NCBI RefSeq assembly: GCF_025574485.1
Contig: NZ_JAOBPO010000001.1
Location: 1,061,501 to 1,125,500 of the forward strand
Source: Kordiimonas aquimaris
Lineage (GTDB): Bacteria; Pseudomonadota; Alphaproteobacteria; Sphingomonadales; Kordiimonadaceae
Direction of reading: 5' to 3'
Length of the DNA: 64,000 nt
The notes beneath the pieces were generated by a model. It saw only the letters and a list, made by a program, of their open reading frames with translations. It did not search any database and had not been told where the DNA came from. This document shows, in pieces, positions 31,098 through 40,242 of this stretch (position 1 is its first letter; each line of letters opens with the position of its first letter). A program made the position numbers and the translations under genes.

Positions 31098-32033
31098 TTA
31101 TGTTTGTTGCCCCATATCGCCACCGTAATACAGCATTGTGGTGTGGCGCGCTTCAGCGAAAAAGAGCCATCGTTCAAAAGCCAAACCAATGAGGCAGGAT
31201 ATTGCGGCAAGAACGTATAAGCCCAGTGCGGTTCCTTGCAATGTCAACATACCTGGCACAATGAAACCGAATAACAAGGCAAGCATGCGCCGCCTTTTGC
31301 AAACGGCACGATCAGCGCGAAACCCCATTTCTTTAGTCAGGTAGTTTTCACCGCTGTGAGGTCGTTCAAATACTTTTACATCACCTTTCAGGCCTGTTGC
31401 CGTCTGGATGGTTTCTTCCGGTATAAAGGTATCAACAAACCGCCAGTACAGAAACTTGCCGACAATGCAGGCAACAAGAATATTGATAGTAAAATAAGGC
31501 GTGAACAAACTGATTATATCGTCAGCATCTATCGCGAATGACAGTGCCCGCACGATCAAAAGCCCGCTTGCTGCGGCAAGTAAAAGATAGTTCATCGGTA
31601 CCATCAAGTGTGCCCATGCGGGCACAGCCTTGATAGACCTGTATATCATGCTCGTGGCGTATACCGTAAGTATAGCCAGCACGAAGCCAATACCTGCTGC
31701 CATCATAACAATACCGTCCGGTAGTTTGAACCAGGCACCGAAGAACAAAAATGCCATAGGTATGTTGATAGTAACAGCAAGGCACCCTTCACGGCTAAGC
31801 CAAGATGAACGCCACTGTGAAAATGCACGCCATGCTCGTTTGGGGTGCCCTAAATGGAACAGGCTCGATATCAAACCTGCCGTTGCCATAAGTCCACTTG
31901 TAAATGTGATAACAGCAACATGCGTTGGCGATATGTTGGTATTCATCAAAATTGCGGCACACAGTATGCCAAACAATCCGTATCCCGCCCCCGAAAGCGT
32001 TGTGAAAATAATAACTGAAAACGCTGGATGCAT
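31098..32033 (-). CDS. soeC: membrane anchor subunit of a molybdopterin oxidoreductase (SoeC/DmsC family)
   Basis: Integral membrane subunit with about eight predicted helices, passing electrons between the FeS subunit and quinone. It begins MHPAFSVIIFTTLSGAGYGL and includes SSLFHLGHPKRAWRAFSQWR and SWLSREG, both typical of the DmsC/SoeC group. It has 311 residues. Its ATG lies one base after the stop of the FeS gene, so the three subunits are one operon. The sulfite-dehydrogenase assignment depends on the large subunit. Confidence 0.75.
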   Translation of the reverse strand: MHPAFSVIIFTTLSGAGYGLFGILCAAILMNTNISPTHVAVITFTSGLMATAGLISSLFHLGHPKRAWRAFSQWRSSWLSREGCLAVTINIPMAFLFFGAWFKLPDGIVMMAAGIGFVLAILTVYATSMIYRSIKAVPAWAHLMVPMNYLLLAAASGLLIVRALSFAIDADDIISLFTPYFTINILVACIVGKFLYWRFVDTFIPEETIQTATGLKGDVKVFERPHSGENYLTKEMGFRADRAVCKRRRMLALLFGFIVPGMLTLQGTALGLYVLAAISCLIGLAFERWLFFAEARHTTMLYYGGDMGQQT

Positions 32034-32034
32034 T

Positions 32035-32832
32035 CTATTGTTCTGCCTTATCAGCTGCGTTTGATTGCTTACCTGTTAAGCGCGTAATCATTGATTTAAG
32101 CCCATCAAACTTGGGTGTCCATGTTGAGGTGCGGGCATTGCGTTTCCTCGGTGCAAGATAAGCATTCACAGGTTTAGTGCCTTGCGAAGGCATCAGGTCG
32201 AGAGTTTCGCGTTTCGCTACTTTTTGAGACACAATGCTGTCTGGATCGCCGAGGTCACCAAAGGCGCGCGCGCCTGTCGGACATGCGGAAACACACGCCG
32301 GTACGCGGCGATCTTCAGGGATGCTGTCATCGTAAATACGATCGACACAAAGCGTGCATTTTTTCATCACACCAGCGGTTAGGTCATATTCGCGAGCGCC
32401 GTATGGGCAGGCCCAGGAACAGAGTTTGCAGCCAATGCATGTGTCAGGGTTTACTAATACAATACCGTCTTCTTCGCGCTTGTATGACGCGCCAGTTGGG
32501 CACACTGTTACGCACGGTGCATCTTCGCAGTGCAGACATGATTTTGGCATGTGTACTGTGGAGCCGTTGGCACCACACCCACCAGAGTTTTCAAGTTGAC
32601 CAATACCTAAATTATCAACGCCGGTTAGGTCCTCAACCTCGTATGAATGCACACGGTTAAACCAAACGCCTTCAGGTTCCATGCCGTATGCGTCGCGGTC
32701 TTCCATCGGGCCAGCCGCGCCGCCCGTATTCCATTCTTTGCAACTGACAGCGCATGCCTGACAACCCACGCAAATATCGAGGTCAATGACAAGTCCCAGC
32801 TTTTTATCTGTGGATTTGGGAAGTGACGTCAT
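32035..32832 (-). CDS. soeB: 4Fe-4S electron-transfer subunit (SoeB/DmsB family)
   Basis: Ferredoxin-like subunit with four cysteine clusters: CVGCQACAVSCKEWN, CLHCEDAPCVTVCPTGA, CIGCKLCSWACPYGAREYD and CTLCVDRI with CVSACPTGA, enough for four [4Fe-4S] clusters. It has no signal peptide, so it acts in the cytoplasm with the catalytic subunit. The start overlaps the soeA stop by four bases (ATGA). The basic C-terminal tail after residue 230 is variable. Confidence 0.8.
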   Translation of the reverse strand: MTSLPKSTDKKLGLVIDLDICVGCQACAVSCKEWNTGGAAGPMEDRDAYGMEPEGVWFNRVHSYEVEDLTGVDNLGIGQLENSGGCGANGSTVHMPKSCLHCEDAPCVTVCPTGASYKREEDGIVLVNPDTCIGCKLCSWACPYGAREYDLTAGVMKKCTLCVDRIYDDSIPEDRRVPACVSACPTGARAFGDLGDPDSIVSQKVAKRETLDLMPSQGTKPVNAYLAPRKRNARTSTWTPKFDGLKSMITRLTGKQSNAADKAEQ

Positions 32833-35747
32833 ACGGTTTCTTCTTCTTGGCTATCATCAGCGTTACGTGTTTGCCAGCTTGTATAATTGACTGTCTCTCC
32901 GGTCCAACTGGCATCGAGCTTTTTAAATGACTGGTGACGATCAAAACCATAAGTCAAATCCTTCGAGGGTTGACCAAGTATGTCGTTATTAGGTGCATCA
33001 AGAAGCGGTTCAGTGATGTTGATATATTCTCCGTCTTGTGTTTCCAGTTTTACCCGCACATCGAACCATGCGGCTTGTCCTGTTACTGGGTCCGAATTTG
33101 ATTGTTTGCCACCGCCTTTGACATTCAGTACTTCAGAAATAACATGATTCATCAGGAAACCTTTGTTGAACTCAGGCGCTTTCTCGTCAAGACCCCATGC
33201 GCCCTTGCGCTTTCCTATCGCATTCCATGTCCAGACTGTGCCCGGATTGCAGCCATCCATGAGGCGTAATTCAACACGCGCTTTACCGTGTGTGCTGGTA
33301 ACCCATATCCAGTCGCCGTCACTTAAGCCCGCTTGTGTGCCTGTTTCACGGTTCATGTAAAGTGCGTTTTTGTTGGTAATTTGCCGTAGCCAAGCATTTT
33401 GTGAGCCCCAGGAATGATACATGTGCATGGGGCGCTGTGTAATTGCAGAGAACGGGAACTCGTTGGCATTATCTACTGTGTGCTCGATTGGCGCATGCCA
33501 TGTTGGTACTGGTGAAAAATGTTCTTCCACACGGCTGCGCAAATGCTCTGGTGGTATACGCCCACCATGACCGCGTGCAGCATTCCGGAAACTCTGCATG
33601 ATCTCGCTATATATGTTTAGCACAACAGGTTCATTTTTAACTAGCCAGCCCATTTTTACTGCAAACGCGAGATAAGATGCATTGGCATGTTTGTAATAGA
33701 CAGCGTCTTTGGGGAGCGGATAGTGCCAGAAACAGCCATTTTCGACATAACGGTCTAGTTGCTCTGTGTTTGGTGCACCTTTACCGTGTTCGCTTCCGCC
33801 CTTACCGCGCCAACCCGCCAGTGAGCCAATACCCGGCGCGCGTTCATGGTTGACGATATAATCTGCATAACCCTTAGGGTATTTAGGCGACTTATCTTCG
33901 TTGATCAGGCCGGGAAGCTCGAGCCGGGCGCCGATATCAAGCAACACATCCTGAAAAGGCCTTACATTGCGGTCCGGTGAGATGACAGGTTGCCGGATAG
34001 AGTCTGCGGCAGCATCTGCTTCGCCGATGGGTCGATCCAGAATGGAAATACAGTCCCAGCGCTCAAGGTATGTTGTGTCTGGCAATATGAGGTCTGCGTA
34101 AGGTACAGTTTCAGAGTAAAATGCGTCAGAATAAACAACAAACGGGATGACATATTCGCCGGTTTCAGCATCTGTGTCGGTTAAGTACTTGATCGCAGAT
34201 TTAACGTTCATCGATGAATTCCATGCCATGTTTGCCATGTACATGAATAATGTATCGATTTTGTATGGGTCGCCAGCCCAGGCATTGTGCATTGCCATGT
34301 GCATCATACCGTGAACAGAAAGCGGATGATCCCAGCTAAATGCTTTATCAAGCCGCATTGGGTTGCCGGCTGCGTCAACGTTTAGATCAATCGGGCTTGT
34401 CGGAAAACCGAGAGGGACGGTATTAAGGGGGGTGCCGGCTATGGTGACAGCGCTGGCTGGCTTGTTGGGTGGTGGAACAGCCTTTGGATAAGGCGGCTTA
34501 TAGCGAAACCCGCCCGGCACATCGATGCTGCCTATCAGCATTTGTAAAATATGGATCATTCGGCACGTGTCAAAACCGTTTGAGTGTGCAGAAATGCCGC
34601 GCATAGCGTGCATGGCAACGGGCCTGCCGGTCATTTTTTCATGCTTCACGCCACGCCAATCTGTCCAAGGAATATCAAGTGTGATTTCCTGCTGGAAAGC
34701 GACATCAGCTATTTCATGTGCAATACGTTTGATTGTCTCGGCAGGAATGCCTGTTTTTGCTGCAGCATTTTCAGGTGTGTATCGCTCGTGAAAAAACTCT
34801 TCTGCAATATGCTCGAAAGCGGGGCGTCCCTGTTTACCGTTAGGTAAAACTGTTTCGCCAGCGAATTGAAAATCAGTTTCTGTACCAAGCGCGCTGGTAA
34901 CTGAGCCATCTACTTTTACTGCCAGTGGGTTACCTTCTTTGTCGCGCATGAACATGCTGTCATTGGCTGCACCCTTTGCATCACGCACAAGCCAAGTTGC
35001 ATTGGTGTACCGTGCCAGATATTTCCAATCGATAGCATCAATACGTAGCAGTTCTTGAATAAGTGCACCCACAAACAGCGCATCAGTGCCGGGGCGTACA
35101 CCTACCCATTCGTCGGCCACAGCTGAGTATCCTGTACGGACAGGGTTAACGGATACAAATTTTGTATTGTTGCGTGATTTTAGCTTTCCAATGCCAATTT
35201 TTATCGGGTTGGAATCGTGATCTTCCGCTACCCCGAACATCAGTAGATATTTGGTGTGGTCCCAATCGGGCTCACCGAACTCCCAAAAGCTTCCGCCGAT
35301 CGAGTACAAACCTGCAGCGGCCATATTGACGGAGCAAAATCCGCCATGAGCCGCATAATTTGGGGTGCCAAATTGCGCTGCCCACCAACCTGTTAAAGCC
35401 TGGCTTTGGTCTCGGCCTGTAAAGAATGCCAACTTCTTAGGGTCAGTGTCGCGGATGTTTTTTAGGCGCGGGATAAGAATGTCGAAAGCTTCATCCCATG
35501 AGATTTCTTTAAATTCACCTGAGCCGCGTTCACCGACACGCAGTAATGGGTTGGTCAGTTTTGCCGGGCTGTTTTGTTGCATAATGCCCGCTGAACCTTT
35601 GGCGCAAAGCACCCCTTTGTTTACAGGGTGATCTGGGTTGCCCTCAATATACCTGAGTTTTCCATCTCGTGTATGAACACGGATACCGCAGCGGCATGCG
35701 CACATGTAACATGTCGTAGTTTTCATCTGATCCTGTTCAGCCATCAT
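32829..35747 (-). CDS. soeA: molybdopterin oxidoreductase, probable SoeA sulfite dehydrogenase catalytic subunit
   Basis: Large bis-MGD molybdoenzyme of 972 residues. The N-terminus carries the FeS cysteines CYMCACRCG and, later, GVLCAKGSAG; FTGRDQSQALTGWWA and HGGFCSVNMAAAG follow. There is no twin-arginine signal, unlike DmsA, PsrA or tetrathionate reductase, which points to a cytoplasm-facing complex as known for SoeABC. The size, gene order and remembered sequence of SoeA proteins in Rhodobacteraceae and purple sulfur bacteria support sulfite oxidation to sulfate with quinone reduction. Other substrates of the same subfamily cannot be ruled out. AAGGAT precedes the start. Confidence 0.68.
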   Translation of the reverse strand: MMAEQDQMKTTTCYMCACRCGIRVHTRDGKLRYIEGNPDHPVNKGVLCAKGSAGIMQQNSPAKLTNPLLRVGERGSGEFKEISWDEAFDILIPRLKNIRDTDPKKLAFFTGRDQSQALTGWWAAQFGTPNYAAHGGFCSVNMAAAGLYSIGGSFWEFGEPDWDHTKYLLMFGVAEDHDSNPIKIGIGKLKSRNNTKFVSVNPVRTGYSAVADEWVGVRPGTDALFVGALIQELLRIDAIDWKYLARYTNATWLVRDAKGAANDSMFMRDKEGNPLAVKVDGSVTSALGTETDFQFAGETVLPNGKQGRPAFEHIAEEFFHERYTPENAAAKTGIPAETIKRIAHEIADVAFQQEITLDIPWTDWRGVKHEKMTGRPVAMHAMRGISAHSNGFDTCRMIHILQMLIGSIDVPGGFRYKPPYPKAVPPPNKPASAVTIAGTPLNTVPLGFPTSPIDLNVDAAGNPMRLDKAFSWDHPLSVHGMMHMAMHNAWAGDPYKIDTLFMYMANMAWNSSMNVKSAIKYLTDTDAETGEYVIPFVVYSDAFYSETVPYADLILPDTTYLERWDCISILDRPIGEADAAADSIRQPVISPDRNVRPFQDVLLDIGARLELPGLINEDKSPKYPKGYADYIVNHERAPGIGSLAGWRGKGGSEHGKGAPNTEQLDRYVENGCFWHYPLPKDAVYYKHANASYLAFAVKMGWLVKNEPVVLNIYSEIMQSFRNAARGHGGRIPPEHLRSRVEEHFSPVPTWHAPIEHTVDNANEFPFSAITQRPMHMYHSWGSQNAWLRQITNKNALYMNRETGTQAGLSDGDWIWVTSTHGKARVELRLMDGCNPGTVWTWNAIGKRKGAWGLDEKAPEFNKGFLMNHVISEVLNVKGGGKQSNSDPVTGQAAWFDVRVKLETQDGEYINITEPLLDAPNNDILGQPSKDLTYGFDRHQSFKKLDASWTGETVNYTSWQTRNADDSQEEETV

Positions 35748-35960: not shown

Positions 35961-36926
35961 TTAGCCCCACAAAGTAGGGTGTGGATAATCCATATTTCCT
36001 TCATCGTATGAAATGCCGTAAGCGCGATCTTGCGCCAAAAGCAAAGGACCATCGAGATCAACGAAAGAACACTGTGCGGCAATTAACATAGCTGGAGCCA
36101 TCGCGAGCGATGTGCCCAGCATACAGCCGACCATTAATTCAAAACCGTGTATCTGCGCATCTTCAGCAAGTAATAATGCTTCGGTCAGACCGCCAGTTTT
36201 CTCTAGTTTGATGTTAATTGCACCGTATCGACCAATTAAATTAGGCAGGTCATGTCGCGTCATGCAGCTTTCATCCGCGCACAAGAGAACAGGGCTTTTG
36301 TAACCAATGAGTGCTGCGTCAGCATCTCGAGAAAGCGGCTGTTCAATAAGTGCAACACCGGCATTGTGAAGTAACGGAGCAACAATTTTCAGGTCATCAA
36401 ATGATAGTGCTTCGTTGGCATCAACAATGATTTTTGCGTCTGGTCTTGCTGCCCTGACGGCACGAACACACTCGATAGCATGAGTTCCGCCCAGCTTTAG
36501 CTTCAAAACGGGCTGATTTGCTGCAGCTATAGCGTTTGCGGCCATTTTTTCAGGTGTATCAAGGCTGAGAGTGAAAGCCGTTTGTATGTTCGGTTTTCTA
36601 TCTACGAAAACGTGTGTGCCATTAGTTTTGGCTTCTAAATCCCACAGCGCGCAGTCAAGGGCACAGCGTGCGCCGCCGGGGGGCATAAGCTCAAGCAATG
36701 CACTGCGTGTTAGATTAGATATGGGTGTGCTAAAAAAATGCTCAATGTCGCGTTTCATGGTGGCGACAGTTTCACCTTTGTAATTGATGCCGGAGGCTTC
36801 GCCGCGTCCCGTAATGCCGTTTTTTGATAAGCATACCATCAGTGTTTCAACACTGTTACATTCACGGCGAGAAATGCGAAAAGGCTTATGCAGCGGCCAT
36901 GTTTCTATTGTTGTAGTTACATTCAT
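35961..36926 (-). CDS. dipeptide epimerase (enolase superfamily)
   Basis: Muconate-lactonising subgroup enzyme resembling L-Ala-D/L-Glu epimerase, used in recycling murein peptides. The catalytic lysine pair is in LKLKLGG, metal ligands are in VDANEAL, IEQPL and CADES, the second-side lysine is in INIKLEKTGG, and the C-terminal VDLDGPLLL resembles the DxD specificity motif of the epimerases. It has 321 residues. An N-acetyl-glutamate racemase (DgcA) role is an alternative, but the usual partner dgcN is absent. It follows the SDR gene by about 45 bases. Confidence 0.75.
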   Translation of the reverse strand: MNVTTTIETWPLHKPFRISRRECNSVETLMVCLSKNGITGRGEASGINYKGETVATMKRDIEHFFSTPISNLTRSALLELMPPGGARCALDCALWDLEAKTNGTHVFVDRKPNIQTAFTLSLDTPEKMAANAIAAANQPVLKLKLGGTHAIECVRAVRAARPDAKIIVDANEALSFDDLKIVAPLLHNAGVALIEQPLSRDADAALIGYKSPVLLCADESCMTRHDLPNLIGRYGAINIKLEKTGGLTEALLLAEDAQIHGFELMVGCMLGTSLAMAPAMLIAAQCSFVDLDGPLLLAQDRAYGISYDEGNMDYPHPTLWG

Positions 36927-36971: not shown

Positions 36972-37712
36972 TCAACAAGCCCATCCCCCGCTGAAGGGTA
37001 TGGCCTGCCCAACAAAGAAGTCACTTTCACTGGATGCAAGAAAAACAGCGAGGGCAGTATCTTCTTCTGGTCTGGCTAATCGACCTAATGGAACGTCTCT
37101 AGATAAATTTGCTTGAAATTTTGGATTTTCCTGCATTTTTTCTGGGTAATACGCAGGATTTTCTACCCAATTTTGCGCAATCAAGTTCATTTGGATGTTG
37201 TCGCGCGCAAGTTCGACACCAACAGATTTAACGTATGATATCTGTGCGCCGCGCGCCGCTGTGTATGCAGCTAGTCTACTCATCGGGCGCAGTGGCACAG
37301 CACTACCATAAACAATGATTTTACCTTGGCCACGTTTTTTCATTTGTGGAACAACTGCGCGCACAAGATGATGTAAGGGATAAACCATTGCTTCAAATGC
37401 GCGGGAGAAACTATCGTCGTCTAATTCCTCTACAGTTTTGCCGTACAGGTTCTCAGAAGCCAGGTTGGCCACCAATATATCAATGTCGCCGGCAGTTTCT
37501 ATCTCGCGCTTAACACTCTCAGTGCTTTCAAATATCTCTGTACTTTCAAATACTGCGGCGCCTTCGGCCCGAAAATGCTCGCATGTTGCAGGCCCCATAA
37601 ATGCATCAGCTTGGGTAACAAAGGCTCGTTTGCCTTTAAGGCGATTCAAGCCATAAATTGCGTCATTCTCGCTTTTAGTTCTATCGCTCATACCCTCACT
37701 CATTTCAATCAT
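36972..37712 (-). CDS. SDR-fold protein with halohydrin dehalogenase motifs
   Basis: A 246-residue short-chain dehydrogenase-fold protein whose motifs differ from ordinary SDRs. The glycine-rich NAD motif is replaced by Thr33-X4-Phe38-X-Gly40 (TQADAFMG), and the catalytic Lys of YxxxK is an Arg: Ser137-X12-Tyr150-X3-Arg154. These two patterns are the published signature of halohydrin dehalogenases, cofactor-free enzymes that close vicinal haloalcohols to epoxides and open epoxides with cyanide, azide or nitrite. MKKRGQGKIIVYGSA and the C-terminal VGQAIPFSGGWAC fit the fold. Start codons at 37703 and 37691 are also possible. It probably forms an operon with the epimerase gene downstream. Confidence 0.7.
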   Translation of the reverse strand: MIEMSEGMSDRTKSENDAIYGLNRLKGKRAFVTQADAFMGPATCEHFRAEGAAVFESTEIFESTESVKREIETAGDIDILVANLASENLYGKTVEELDDDSFSRAFEAMVYPLHHLVRAVVPQMKKRGQGKIIVYGSAVPLRPMSRLAAYTAARGAQISYVKSVGVELARDNIQMNLIAQNWVENPAYYPEKMQENPKFQANLSRDVPLGRLARPEEDTALAVFLASSESDFFVGQAIPFSGGWAC

Positions 37713-37743: not shown

Positions 37744-40242
37744 CTATATAAACACAAGCGAGATATCTGATATGTCGTTTTCAGTGATGCCTACAAGAAA
37801 GATACTGCTGTTAGTATTTGTTGTTATCAACAACCCTGATTGACCATTGATGGTTGCGTTGTTTGATGTGGCTTGAAGGTCGCTCGTACTGCCAATATTC
37901 AGTTCGGCCTCAAAGGCTAGGCTATCCGATAAATTGAAATCAGTGATCGTATCGTTACCGTGATTTGCCGCAAATGCGAACTGATCCGAACCACTACCAC
38001 CGGTGATTTCATCATCATCACGGCCTCCAAAAATAGTATCGTTGCCTTCATTGCCAAACAGTGTGTCGTCGGCATCGCCGCCAAAGATAAGGTCATTACC
38101 GGCGCCGCCAGATACAAAATCTTCATCAGTTGCAGCAAATATCTCGTCGTCGCCATTGCCCCCGTCAATGGTGTCTGCGTTGTCTGTTGCGGAACCGATT
38201 CCACCAAAGATAGTGTCGTCACCGTCGCCGCCGTTGATTTCGTCGTCACCTTGTCCACCGCCAAGAATGTCGCCGCGACCATCGCCGAACAATGTATCAC
38301 TTCCTGTTCCAGCGAAAATTACGTTCTCACCAGATGCTGTGCTGATCGCTGTTTCCGATTGGCTATCATAGGAACCACCGACTAGAAAATCATTACCCGC
38401 CCCGCCAAACAGTGTGTCGCTGCCTGCGCCGTCTGCAGTGTTCGGGTTTAAGCCGGACGCAATATCGCCGCCAACTGCAAAATCATTGCCTGCGCCGACA
38501 CCCAATCTGTCGTTGCCAGCATTACCTTGAACTGTATCATTTCCCAGGTCGTCAGGGCCTGCAAATGAATTGTCATTACCTGCGCCGCCCGAGATGGCGT
38601 CGTTACCAGCATCACCGCGCAAAAAGTCGTCACCGTCACCGCCGTCCAGACTGTCGTTGCCTGCACCACCAAGGAGGCGATTATCTGCGGCGTTACCAAC
38701 AACGGTGTCATTGCCGCCCGCAACAGTAATGTTCTCAATGATAGTTTCTGGTGTCAGAAAAATGGTGTCGTCGCGTCGCCCAACAACAATGTTATTGGCA
38801 TCTCGGTACGTAACAGTTGTTCCAACATCAATGAAAGCACCGCCGAAGAAAGCATCATCTGGCGTTAGGTTAATGACTACGGCTTCATTGCCTCCAAAGA
38901 TTTCAATCGTGTCTGTGCCGCCATTGTCAAATATTGTTTCAAAGTAACGGCCATTCACATCAAAGCGGTAAACATTATCTTCTGGTTGTTCGTCGTCGGG
39001 TGCGCCGTACAAAGTGCGCAGTGCAAGAATGTCGCCGTAACTGAAAGTTGTTGGATAAAGATCTGCACGTACGGCGGTCGGGAAAAATGCAGAAGAAAAG
39101 CTGGGTACGAGCAAAGTGAACTCTGCGCCAAAGAAAGCTTCAGGGAAGGTGCCTTCATCTGGCTCTGGGTGGGTCAGGCCAAGTGCGTGGCCAAGTTCGT
39201 GCAAGATTACAAAGTTGGCAAATGTGCCGGTTCCTGTCCGGCTTTCAAAAATAGCAATGTCGCCAGCAGTGACAGCCTGGCTTGGCAAGCCAGCAAAGCC
39301 AACCACATTGCCGCTGTCTGCTGTGTTGCCAAAGATACGGAGCGTCCCAAAGTTTTCACCTTCATCAGGGACTTCAACAAACCTCACGTTTGCCAAGGCT
39401 TCAACCTGTTCCAGGCCGTCACGGAAAACAGCTTCGCCGTTAGCTGATATGGGAATTGCGAACTCGGTTACGTCGGTTTCGTTACCGTCCTCATCATCCA
39501 GATTAAATGGGGCAATAAATGTAGCATTGGGTCCAGGGAAACTGAATGAGATGATGGCAGGACCATCGCCATCACCAAATGCGTTACCAAAGAAAAGGTC
39601 GTCAATGAAATCGTTACCCGTGTCACTGACACGCCTTATTTCAATTGGATCAGGGCGTGTAGATAATGCCTGCTCTTCAACGAACAATGTGTATGTGCCA
39701 GTATCTGTCAGGTTCACATTGTTGAAAGAGCTTGCGCCAATAAAGAATGTACCGCTCTGCGTTGGTGTAAAGATGATGCGGCTATTGGTAACTACACCGT
39801 CATCGTCATCTGAGTTGGCGACACGGGCACCATTTGCATTAAATATACCTGTTAGAAAAGGATCAAGAAGGGTGCCGCCGCCTGTTCTGCTGCCTTCGAG
39901 GTCTATTTGATATGTAACGCCTGCTTCTAATGTAACAGCAAAGAAATCAATATCATTTTCTTCTTCAATGTTAGCGGTGACGCTGCTTCCAACCGAAACG
40001 GAAAGCTGAGTAGCAATACTACCGGTTGGTTCATCGTCGGGCAGTGTTGCTGCGGCGTTTTGGGGTTCTGATGCTGTAGTCGTTGCTGTCTGATTAACCG
40101 GAAGGAACGGCGCAGTTGCTGCTGCCGCTTCTGCACAATCTGCACAATCACAACCTGTGTTATGGCTATGACTATGGCTGTGGTTATGGCCTGCGCCGTG
40201 ACTATGATCGTGTGTGTGACTATAGCTTTCAGTATAACTCAT
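37744..40242 (-). CDS. RTX-repeat M10-type (serralysin-like) secreted metalloprotease
   Basis: An 832-residue acidic protein for type I secretion. Residues about 8-27 are His-rich (HTHDHSHGAGHNHSHSHSH), followed by CDCADC. A PPC-like beta domain spans about 75-190. The zinc motif HELGHALGLTH is near residue 347, and YGDILALRTLYG matches the end of the M10 domain, but the Met-turn VMSY is here VPSF. About 250 residues (506-754) are calcium-binding GGxGxD repeats, followed by a C-terminal beta region suited to an RTX export signal. No type I secretion genes are nearby. Metalloprotease activity is likely but the altered Met-turn leaves doubt. Confidence 0.8.
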   Translation of the reverse strand: MSYTESYSHTHDHSHGAGHNHSHSHSHNTGCDCADCAEAAAATAPFLPVNQTATTTASEPQNAAATLPDDEPTGSIATQLSVSVGSSVTANIEEENDIDFFAVTLEAGVTYQIDLEGSRTGGGTLLDPFLTGIFNANGARVANSDDDDGVVTNSRIIFTPTQSGTFFIGASSFNNVNLTDTGTYTLFVEEQALSTRPDPIEIRRVSDTGNDFIDDLFFGNAFGDGDGPAIISFSFPGPNATFIAPFNLDDEDGNETDVTEFAIPISANGEAVFRDGLEQVEALANVRFVEVPDEGENFGTLRIFGNTADSGNVVGFAGLPSQAVTAGDIAIFESRTGTGTFANFVILHELGHALGLTHPEPDEGTFPEAFFGAEFTLLVPSFSSAFFPTAVRADLYPTTFSYGDILALRTLYGAPDDEQPEDNVYRFDVNGRYFETIFDNGGTDTIEIFGGNEAVVINLTPDDAFFGGAFIDVGTTVTYRDANNIVVGRRDDTIFLTPETIIENITVAGGNDTVVGNAADNRLLGGAGNDSLDGGDGDDFLRGDAGNDAISGGAGNDNSFAGPDDLGNDTVQGNAGNDRLGVGAGNDFAVGGDIASGLNPNTADGAGSDTLFGGAGNDFLVGGSYDSQSETAISTASGENVIFAGTGSDTLFGDGRGDILGGGQGDDEINGGDGDDTIFGGIGSATDNADTIDGGNGDDEIFAATDEDFVSGGAGNDLIFGGDADDTLFGNEGNDTIFGGRDDDEITGGSGSDQFAFAANHGNDTITDFNLSDSLAFEAELNIGSTSDLQATSNNATINGQSGLLITTNTNSSIFLVGITENDISDISLVFI
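37981..38728 (-). repeat. RTX nonapeptide repeat region
   Basis: Tandem, imperfect 27-base units inside the metalloprotease gene, encoding GGxGxDxx(L/I/F) repeats such as LLGGAGNDSL and ISGGAGND. The product folds into a calcium-filled beta roll after export. The units are interrupted twice by non-repeat loops (NPNTADGAG and SQSETAISTASG). Confidence 0.85.

Follow-up and report, generated by a model that had tools for sequence, protein, structure and literature searches.

What does an SDR-fold protein from Kordiimonas aquimaris do if the residues that would bind NAD(P) in its relatives have been exchanged for others? The initial annotation of the window, by which we mean the whole stretch of 64,000 nucleotides that was analysed, had proposed from two motifs that one of its genes encodes a halohydrin dehalogenase. 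We examined this reading by motif and column comparison, structure matches, a phylogenetic tree and gene neighbourhoods.

The reading frame and its family placement

The features on which the argument depends are the following.

36972..37712, minus strand: candidate halohydrin dehalogenase gene (open reading frame, phmmer against the PDB, tree, column comparison)
37593..37616, minus strand: motif 1, residues 33-40, T-QADA-F-M-G, occupying the site of the SDR glycine-rich cofactor motif
37251..37304, minus strand: motif 2, residues 137-154, S-X12-Y-X3-R, the Ser-Tyr-Arg triad
37164..37175, minus strand: QNWV, residues 180-183, at the SDR P/F-G segment (column comparison)

The frame at 36972-37712 encodes 246 aa from an ATG start with zero internal stops, and both motifs lie intact within it at the residues where they had been placed. 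Motif 1 (TQADAFMG, T33-QADA-F38-M-G40) begins at residue 33, and motif 2 (SAVPLRPMSRLAAYTAAR, S137-X12-Y150-X3-R154) at residue 137. The fingerprints published for halohydrin dehalogenases are T-X4-F/Y-X-G and S-X12-Y-X3-R (in passages of PMC4989007 and PMC11976700), and those of ordinary SDRs are T-G/A-X3-G/A-X-G and S-X10-14-Y-X3-K (in a passage of PMC11976700). The window protein carries the first pair, with T-X4-F/Y-X-G near its N terminus and S137, Y150 and R154 in the second pattern, and lacks the classical SDR pair. Its exact start codon is uncertain, because residues 1-22 lie outside the region that aligned to solved structures.

Among the best 60 of 444 phmmer matches in the PDB, the top places were taken by 7b73 (220 bits), HheB 4zd6 (208), the HheB variant 5b12 (204) and 8xxb (197), followed by 6a41, named a "dehalogenase" (113), HheA 4z9f (92) and HheA2 1zmo (90), while ordinary SDR depositions from outside this group scored at most 75 bits. 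Identity to the window protein is 51% for 7b73 (over 223 residues), 47% for HheB 4zd6, 46% for 8xxb, 32% for 6a41 and 30% for the engineered HheC 4ixt, so that the nearest solved relative is only 51% identical. The deposition names of 7b73 and 8xxb mention SDR only, and both motifs are visible in the printed alignments of these chains. We take 7b73 to be HheD2. The description of HheD2 in part of PMC5892878, as a gammaproteobacterial protein of 230 aa with four copies per crystal unit, fits this identity, and 4zd6 is given as HheB in the legend of Fig. 2 of PMC4989007. Pfam and NCBIfam returned generic SDR domains only, and the protein fell below the curated cut-off of every NCBIfam model among the matches listed (25 of 182).

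A maximum-likelihood tree of 106 rows (quick search, SH-aLRT support only, midpoint root) included HheB, 7b73 and five ordinary SDR rows as references, with HheA and HheG sequences left out. The window protein falls into a 9-row genus clade (SH-aLRT 99), a 14-row clade that also holds three Rhizobiaceae and two genomes from the window's class (SH-aLRT 93), a 68-row clade with HheB (SH-aLRT 90) and a 77-row clade that adds 7b73 and 8xxb (SH-aLRT 95). HheC and 6a41 belong to another clade of 19 rows (SH-aLRT 90), and the five ordinary SDR rows stand at the far side of the tree from the window clade. The protein thus groups, by tree and by PDB ranking, with characterised halohydrin dehalogenases and apart from ordinary SDRs, and not inside the classical NAD(P)-dependent clades. 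Sequence evidence places it firmly in the halohydrin dehalogenase family.

The nearest named enzymes each share some features with the window protein and differ in others. The 7b73 chain has both motifs and QN at positions 180-181, but it lies outside the window protein's 68-row clade on the best tree; when the Kordiimonas rows were constrained to group with 7b73, 8xxb and L024, the joint clade was not rejected (AU p 0.21), a comparison with subtype D in which 7b73 is the sole HheD reference and E and F references are absent. Later members of that subtype, HheD19-38, are listed as 57-95% identical to the verified HheD-HheD6 in a passage of PMC4989007. HheB 4zd6 also has both motifs and shares the 68-row clade, but it sits in another subclade on a long branch (the program warned of long branches for HheB and several other rows) and has H and T where the window protein has N181 and V183. 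HheC (PDB 1pwx group) has the same Ser-Tyr-Arg triad and the expected reaction type, but belongs to its separate clade.

Motif specificity and the replaced SDR columns

As a control for the motifs, we collected 1553 distinct open reading frames of at least 150 aa from 118 fetched loci. Both motifs at SDR spacing were present in 86 of the 98 frames closer to the window protein, in 0/28 SDR frames with an ordinary SDR as the nearer relative and in 0/1427 non-SDR frames of the fetched loci. The co-occurrence of the two motifs is not chance. Twelve of the 98 frames miss the motif pair: four are short, at 161-200 aa (L106, L016, L032, L096); five are full-length and keep motif 2, with motif 1 not in place (L033, L034, L036, L037, L045_2); two adjoin another HHDH-like gene and carry neither motif (L041_10, L045_1); and the last is a 23-bit match (L084_55). 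The HHDH-like proteins of L033, L034, L036, L037 and L045 may be natural variants of motif 1. The motif-less SDR-like frames at L041:2239-2967 and L045:559-1287 directly adjoin an HHDH-like frame, possibly as parts of a hetero-oligomer.

In a first alignment of 49 rows, the window protein plus 48 of 68 full-length frames, T33, G40, S137, Y150 and R154 were invariant. A wider alignment set 74 close relatives and 23 more distant HHDH-like frames against 28 ordinary SDRs. Position 38 is F or Y in all 72 close relatives not gapped at this site (two are gapped; F in the window protein) and G in 28/28 ordinary SDRs; position 154 is R in 74/74, a pattern that includes the window protein, versus K in 27/28. 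Position 109 presumably lies near the catalytic Asn of SDRs; 74/74 close relatives have M or L there (M in the window protein), and 26/28 ordinary SDRs have N or H. The pattern extends to position 180 (Q in 74/74; P or F in 28/28), position 181 (N in 66/74; G in 24/28) and position 185 (N or S in 74/74, with N in the window protein; T or S in 27/28), while Tyr188, found in 74/74 close relatives, is carried on an extra segment absent from 25/28 ordinary SDRs. The more distant HHDH-like frames have R154 in 21/23 and F or Y at position 38 in 16/23.

These columns fit a nucleophile pocket where SDRs have the nicotinamide site, a pocket of which QNWV at residues 180-183 is likely to form part by analogy with the family. 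The NAD(P) site of the window protein thus appears to have been dismantled: the glycine-rich motif, the catalytic Lys and further SDR columns are all replaced, which argues against the intact cofactor site that would have spoken for an ordinary SDR.

Distribution and gene neighbourhood

The gene was found in 8 of 19 Kordiimonas genomes, the source genome included (E <= 1e-30). Nine of 98 relatives searched had a match at the same threshold, the ninth being a partial, more distant HHDH-like protein at 44% (L016). In a sample of 385 genomes of the class, 47 matched at E <= 1e-25, again with the source genome included, and nine others carry proteins of 43-64% identity (L017-L025), 9/9 with both motifs. 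A genome scan yielded 73 loci, mostly from metagenome-assembled genomes and including a few partial or weak matches (L114, L116, L117). Within the genus the gene is common, and in the class its occurrence is scattered and not common; the description of such enzymes as rare consequently does not suit the genus and agrees better with the class sample.

Two neighbours on the same strand flank the gene.

37744..40242, minus strand: upstream gene for an RTX-repeat protein of 832 aa (Pfam), with a PPC domain and a metalloprotease-like motif, HELGHALGLTHP, read in the translation
35961..36926, minus strand: downstream gene of the MR_MLE superfamily, dipeptide-epimerase-like, 321 aa (Pfam)

A related RTX gene stands upstream of the dehalogenase gene on the same strand in all eight Kordiimonas loci, the window included. 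In the window 31 bp separate the two genes, and by called starts the distance is 34-52 bp in six of the seven other loci; in L051 the called start overlaps the RTX gene, and an alignment-placed start gives 34 bp. No terminator-like site was reported in the window's gap; the region as a whole has no excess of them over shuffles (5 vs 4.8). Co-transcription of the two genes is plausible. In two of the eight genomes (G003, G018) the RTX match contains a stop codon. Dehalogenase-free genomes also have relatives of the RTX protein, at up to 55% across the searched portion, so that the RTX family as such does not require the dehalogenase. The N terminus of the RTX-repeat protein is histidine-rich.

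On the other side, the epimerase-like gene lies 45 bp from the dehalogenase gene. It has the MR_MLE domains of the enolase superfamily, and the initial annotation's name for it, dipeptide epimerase, is a presumption. A close orthologue (56-64%) is present in 8/8 genus genomes with the dehalogenase and 0/11 without it, the latter having epimerase-like copies at no more than 49%, and shared inheritance of a block is enough to account for this co-occurrence. The dipeptide epimerase was rejected as an explanation of the dehalogenase, since the two genes are not adjacent elsewhere in the genus: a flavoprotein-family gene lies between them in 7/7 other loci and, in five of these, a formyltransferase-family gene on the opposite strand as well (families from Pfam on one member per cluster).

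Further neighbours in the window, named from Pfam, are a DmsABC-like molybdoenzyme operon, a zinc alcohol dehydrogenase, an aminotransferase-fold protein, an AsnC regulator and a FecCD transporter; the alcohol dehydrogenase and the aminotransferase-fold protein would be threonine dehydrogenase-like and Kbl-like, respectively. The DmsABC-like operon occupies window positions 31098-35747, with the epimerase-like gene on one side and the Tdh-like alcohol dehydrogenase gene on the other; none of the seven other Kordiimonas loci showed it beside the epimerase. A Pfam scan of ten neighbours in the window showed no pathway for haloalkanes or other halogenated compounds. We also rejected deducing the substrate from these neighbours, as none points to a halogenated compound. 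Over 71 related loci, with frames called by a simple script, no clade-wide partner gene emerged, the largest neighbour cluster covering 17. The epoxide hydrolase families EHN (PF06441) and LEH (PF07858) gave 0 matches in the source genome. A Trp_halogenase-family gene occurs elsewhere in the genome; this match says little, because the model also matches 5 of 14 control genomes.

Mechanism, alternatives and natural role

The motifs, the PDB matches, the tree and the replaced SDR columns together make it very probable that the gene product is, as had been proposed, a halohydrin dehalogenase that works without a cofactor, and that it belongs with HheB and 7b73; reaction and pocket are drawn from the family as described in part of PMC4989007. 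Against this reading count the modest identity to the nearest solved relative, the SDR-only deposition names of two of the four best PDB matches, the generic SDR domains in Pfam and NCBIfam, the lack of EHN and LEH matches in the genome and that of a haloalkane pathway among the ten neighbours scanned. Ser137 would hold a vicinal haloalcohol, from which Tyr150 would take the proton, with Arg154 lowering the pKa of the tyrosine; the resulting alkoxide would displace the halide, which would leave into the pocket formed by motif 1 (T33, F38, G40) and the QNWV loop, at the site that holds NAD(P) in SDRs. In the reverse direction, the epoxide would be opened with halide, azide, cyanide or nitrite. 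Sections of PMC4989007 count 37 novel genes plus 26 additional sequences as motif-positive up to 2016 and report confirmed activity for 19 enzymes selected from such motif searches; the window protein would be an addition to this already known family.

The generic SDR matches in Pfam and NCBIfam are what one would expect of a classical NAD(P)-dependent SDR that had acquired both motifs by chance, but the lack of the motif pair in every ordinary SDR of the control set, the missing glycine-rich motif and catalytic Lys and the placement on the tree leave this reading with next to no probability. A non-catalytic SDR-fold protein serving as companion of the RTX protein would explain the constant adjacency of the two genes in the genus; we consider it very improbable, since the catalytic residues are all intact in the genus and the wider clade, and the wider clade has other neighbours.

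Harder to set aside, and still quite unlikely in our judgement, is a cofactor-free SDR-fold enzyme of the same clade that in the cell carries out some related addition or elimination, with an epoxide or beta-substituted alcohol of natural origin as its substrate, and turns over haloalcohols only incidentally. It would agree with the want of a halogenated-compound pathway among the ten neighbours scanned and with neighbours that vary by lineage (no cluster beyond 17/71 loci), but the clade shows no variation in the triad or in the residues of motif 1, and the part of PMC4989007 cited above reports halohydrin dehalogenase activity for enzymes chosen by the two motifs.

A lead on the natural role of the halohydrin dehalogenase comes from other lineages, where glutathione transferase genes of three distinct clusters stand directly upstream of the dehalogenase gene on the same strand. 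One cluster, C22, is found in seven loci (L078, L079, L084, L092, L093, L094, L103), overlapping the dehalogenase gene by 4 bp in L078, L079, L093 and L103 and by 1 bp in L084 and L092, with the start uncertain in L094; the others overlap by 4 bp (L070) or leave gaps of 57 and 44 bp (L086/L098). The gene row of the C22 loci, from Pfam on one or two members per cluster, runs from a TauD-family dioxygenase through the glutathione transferase and the dehalogenase to a 6-O-methylguanine-DNA-methyltransferase-like gene. Counting one row per cluster, GST_C was found in 4 of 36 coupled neighbours versus GST_N_2 in 2 of 125 distant ones (Fisher p 0.023), a count that, being limited to the 25 families listed, compares different GST models in the near and far sets and in which many frames may be spurious. 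The far set was 125 of 310 clusters drawn at random, minus clusters already in the near set. The fourth row is weak (the downstream gene of L085, GST_C only, E 6.8e-5); without it the figure is 3/36 (p 0.07). The hypothesis was formed after the data had been seen, and the enrichment is weak and only suggestive. Among the Kordiimonas loci, no glutathione transferase was seen adjacent to the dehalogenase.

Conjugation of the epoxide to glutathione would provide the dehalogenase with a sink for its product. This leads us to a doubtful proposal, in which such enzymes in several proteobacterial lineages might detoxify natural halohydrins, with the upstream-encoded transferase capturing the epoxide in place of the epoxide hydrolase of known degraders, and with transferases encoded elsewhere in Kordiimonas. 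Our literature searches returned no title on a natural role for halohydrin dehalogenase and glutathione and none joining Kordiimonas with halohydrin; absence from print is not claimed for either.

Our findings would extend an enzyme family with uses in epoxide chemistry by a branch from Kordiimonas, and they would offer a natural setting, outside pollutant-degrading isolates, for asking how these enzymes benefit their hosts. The glutathione transferase neighbour in other lineages provides a testable hint on that host role.
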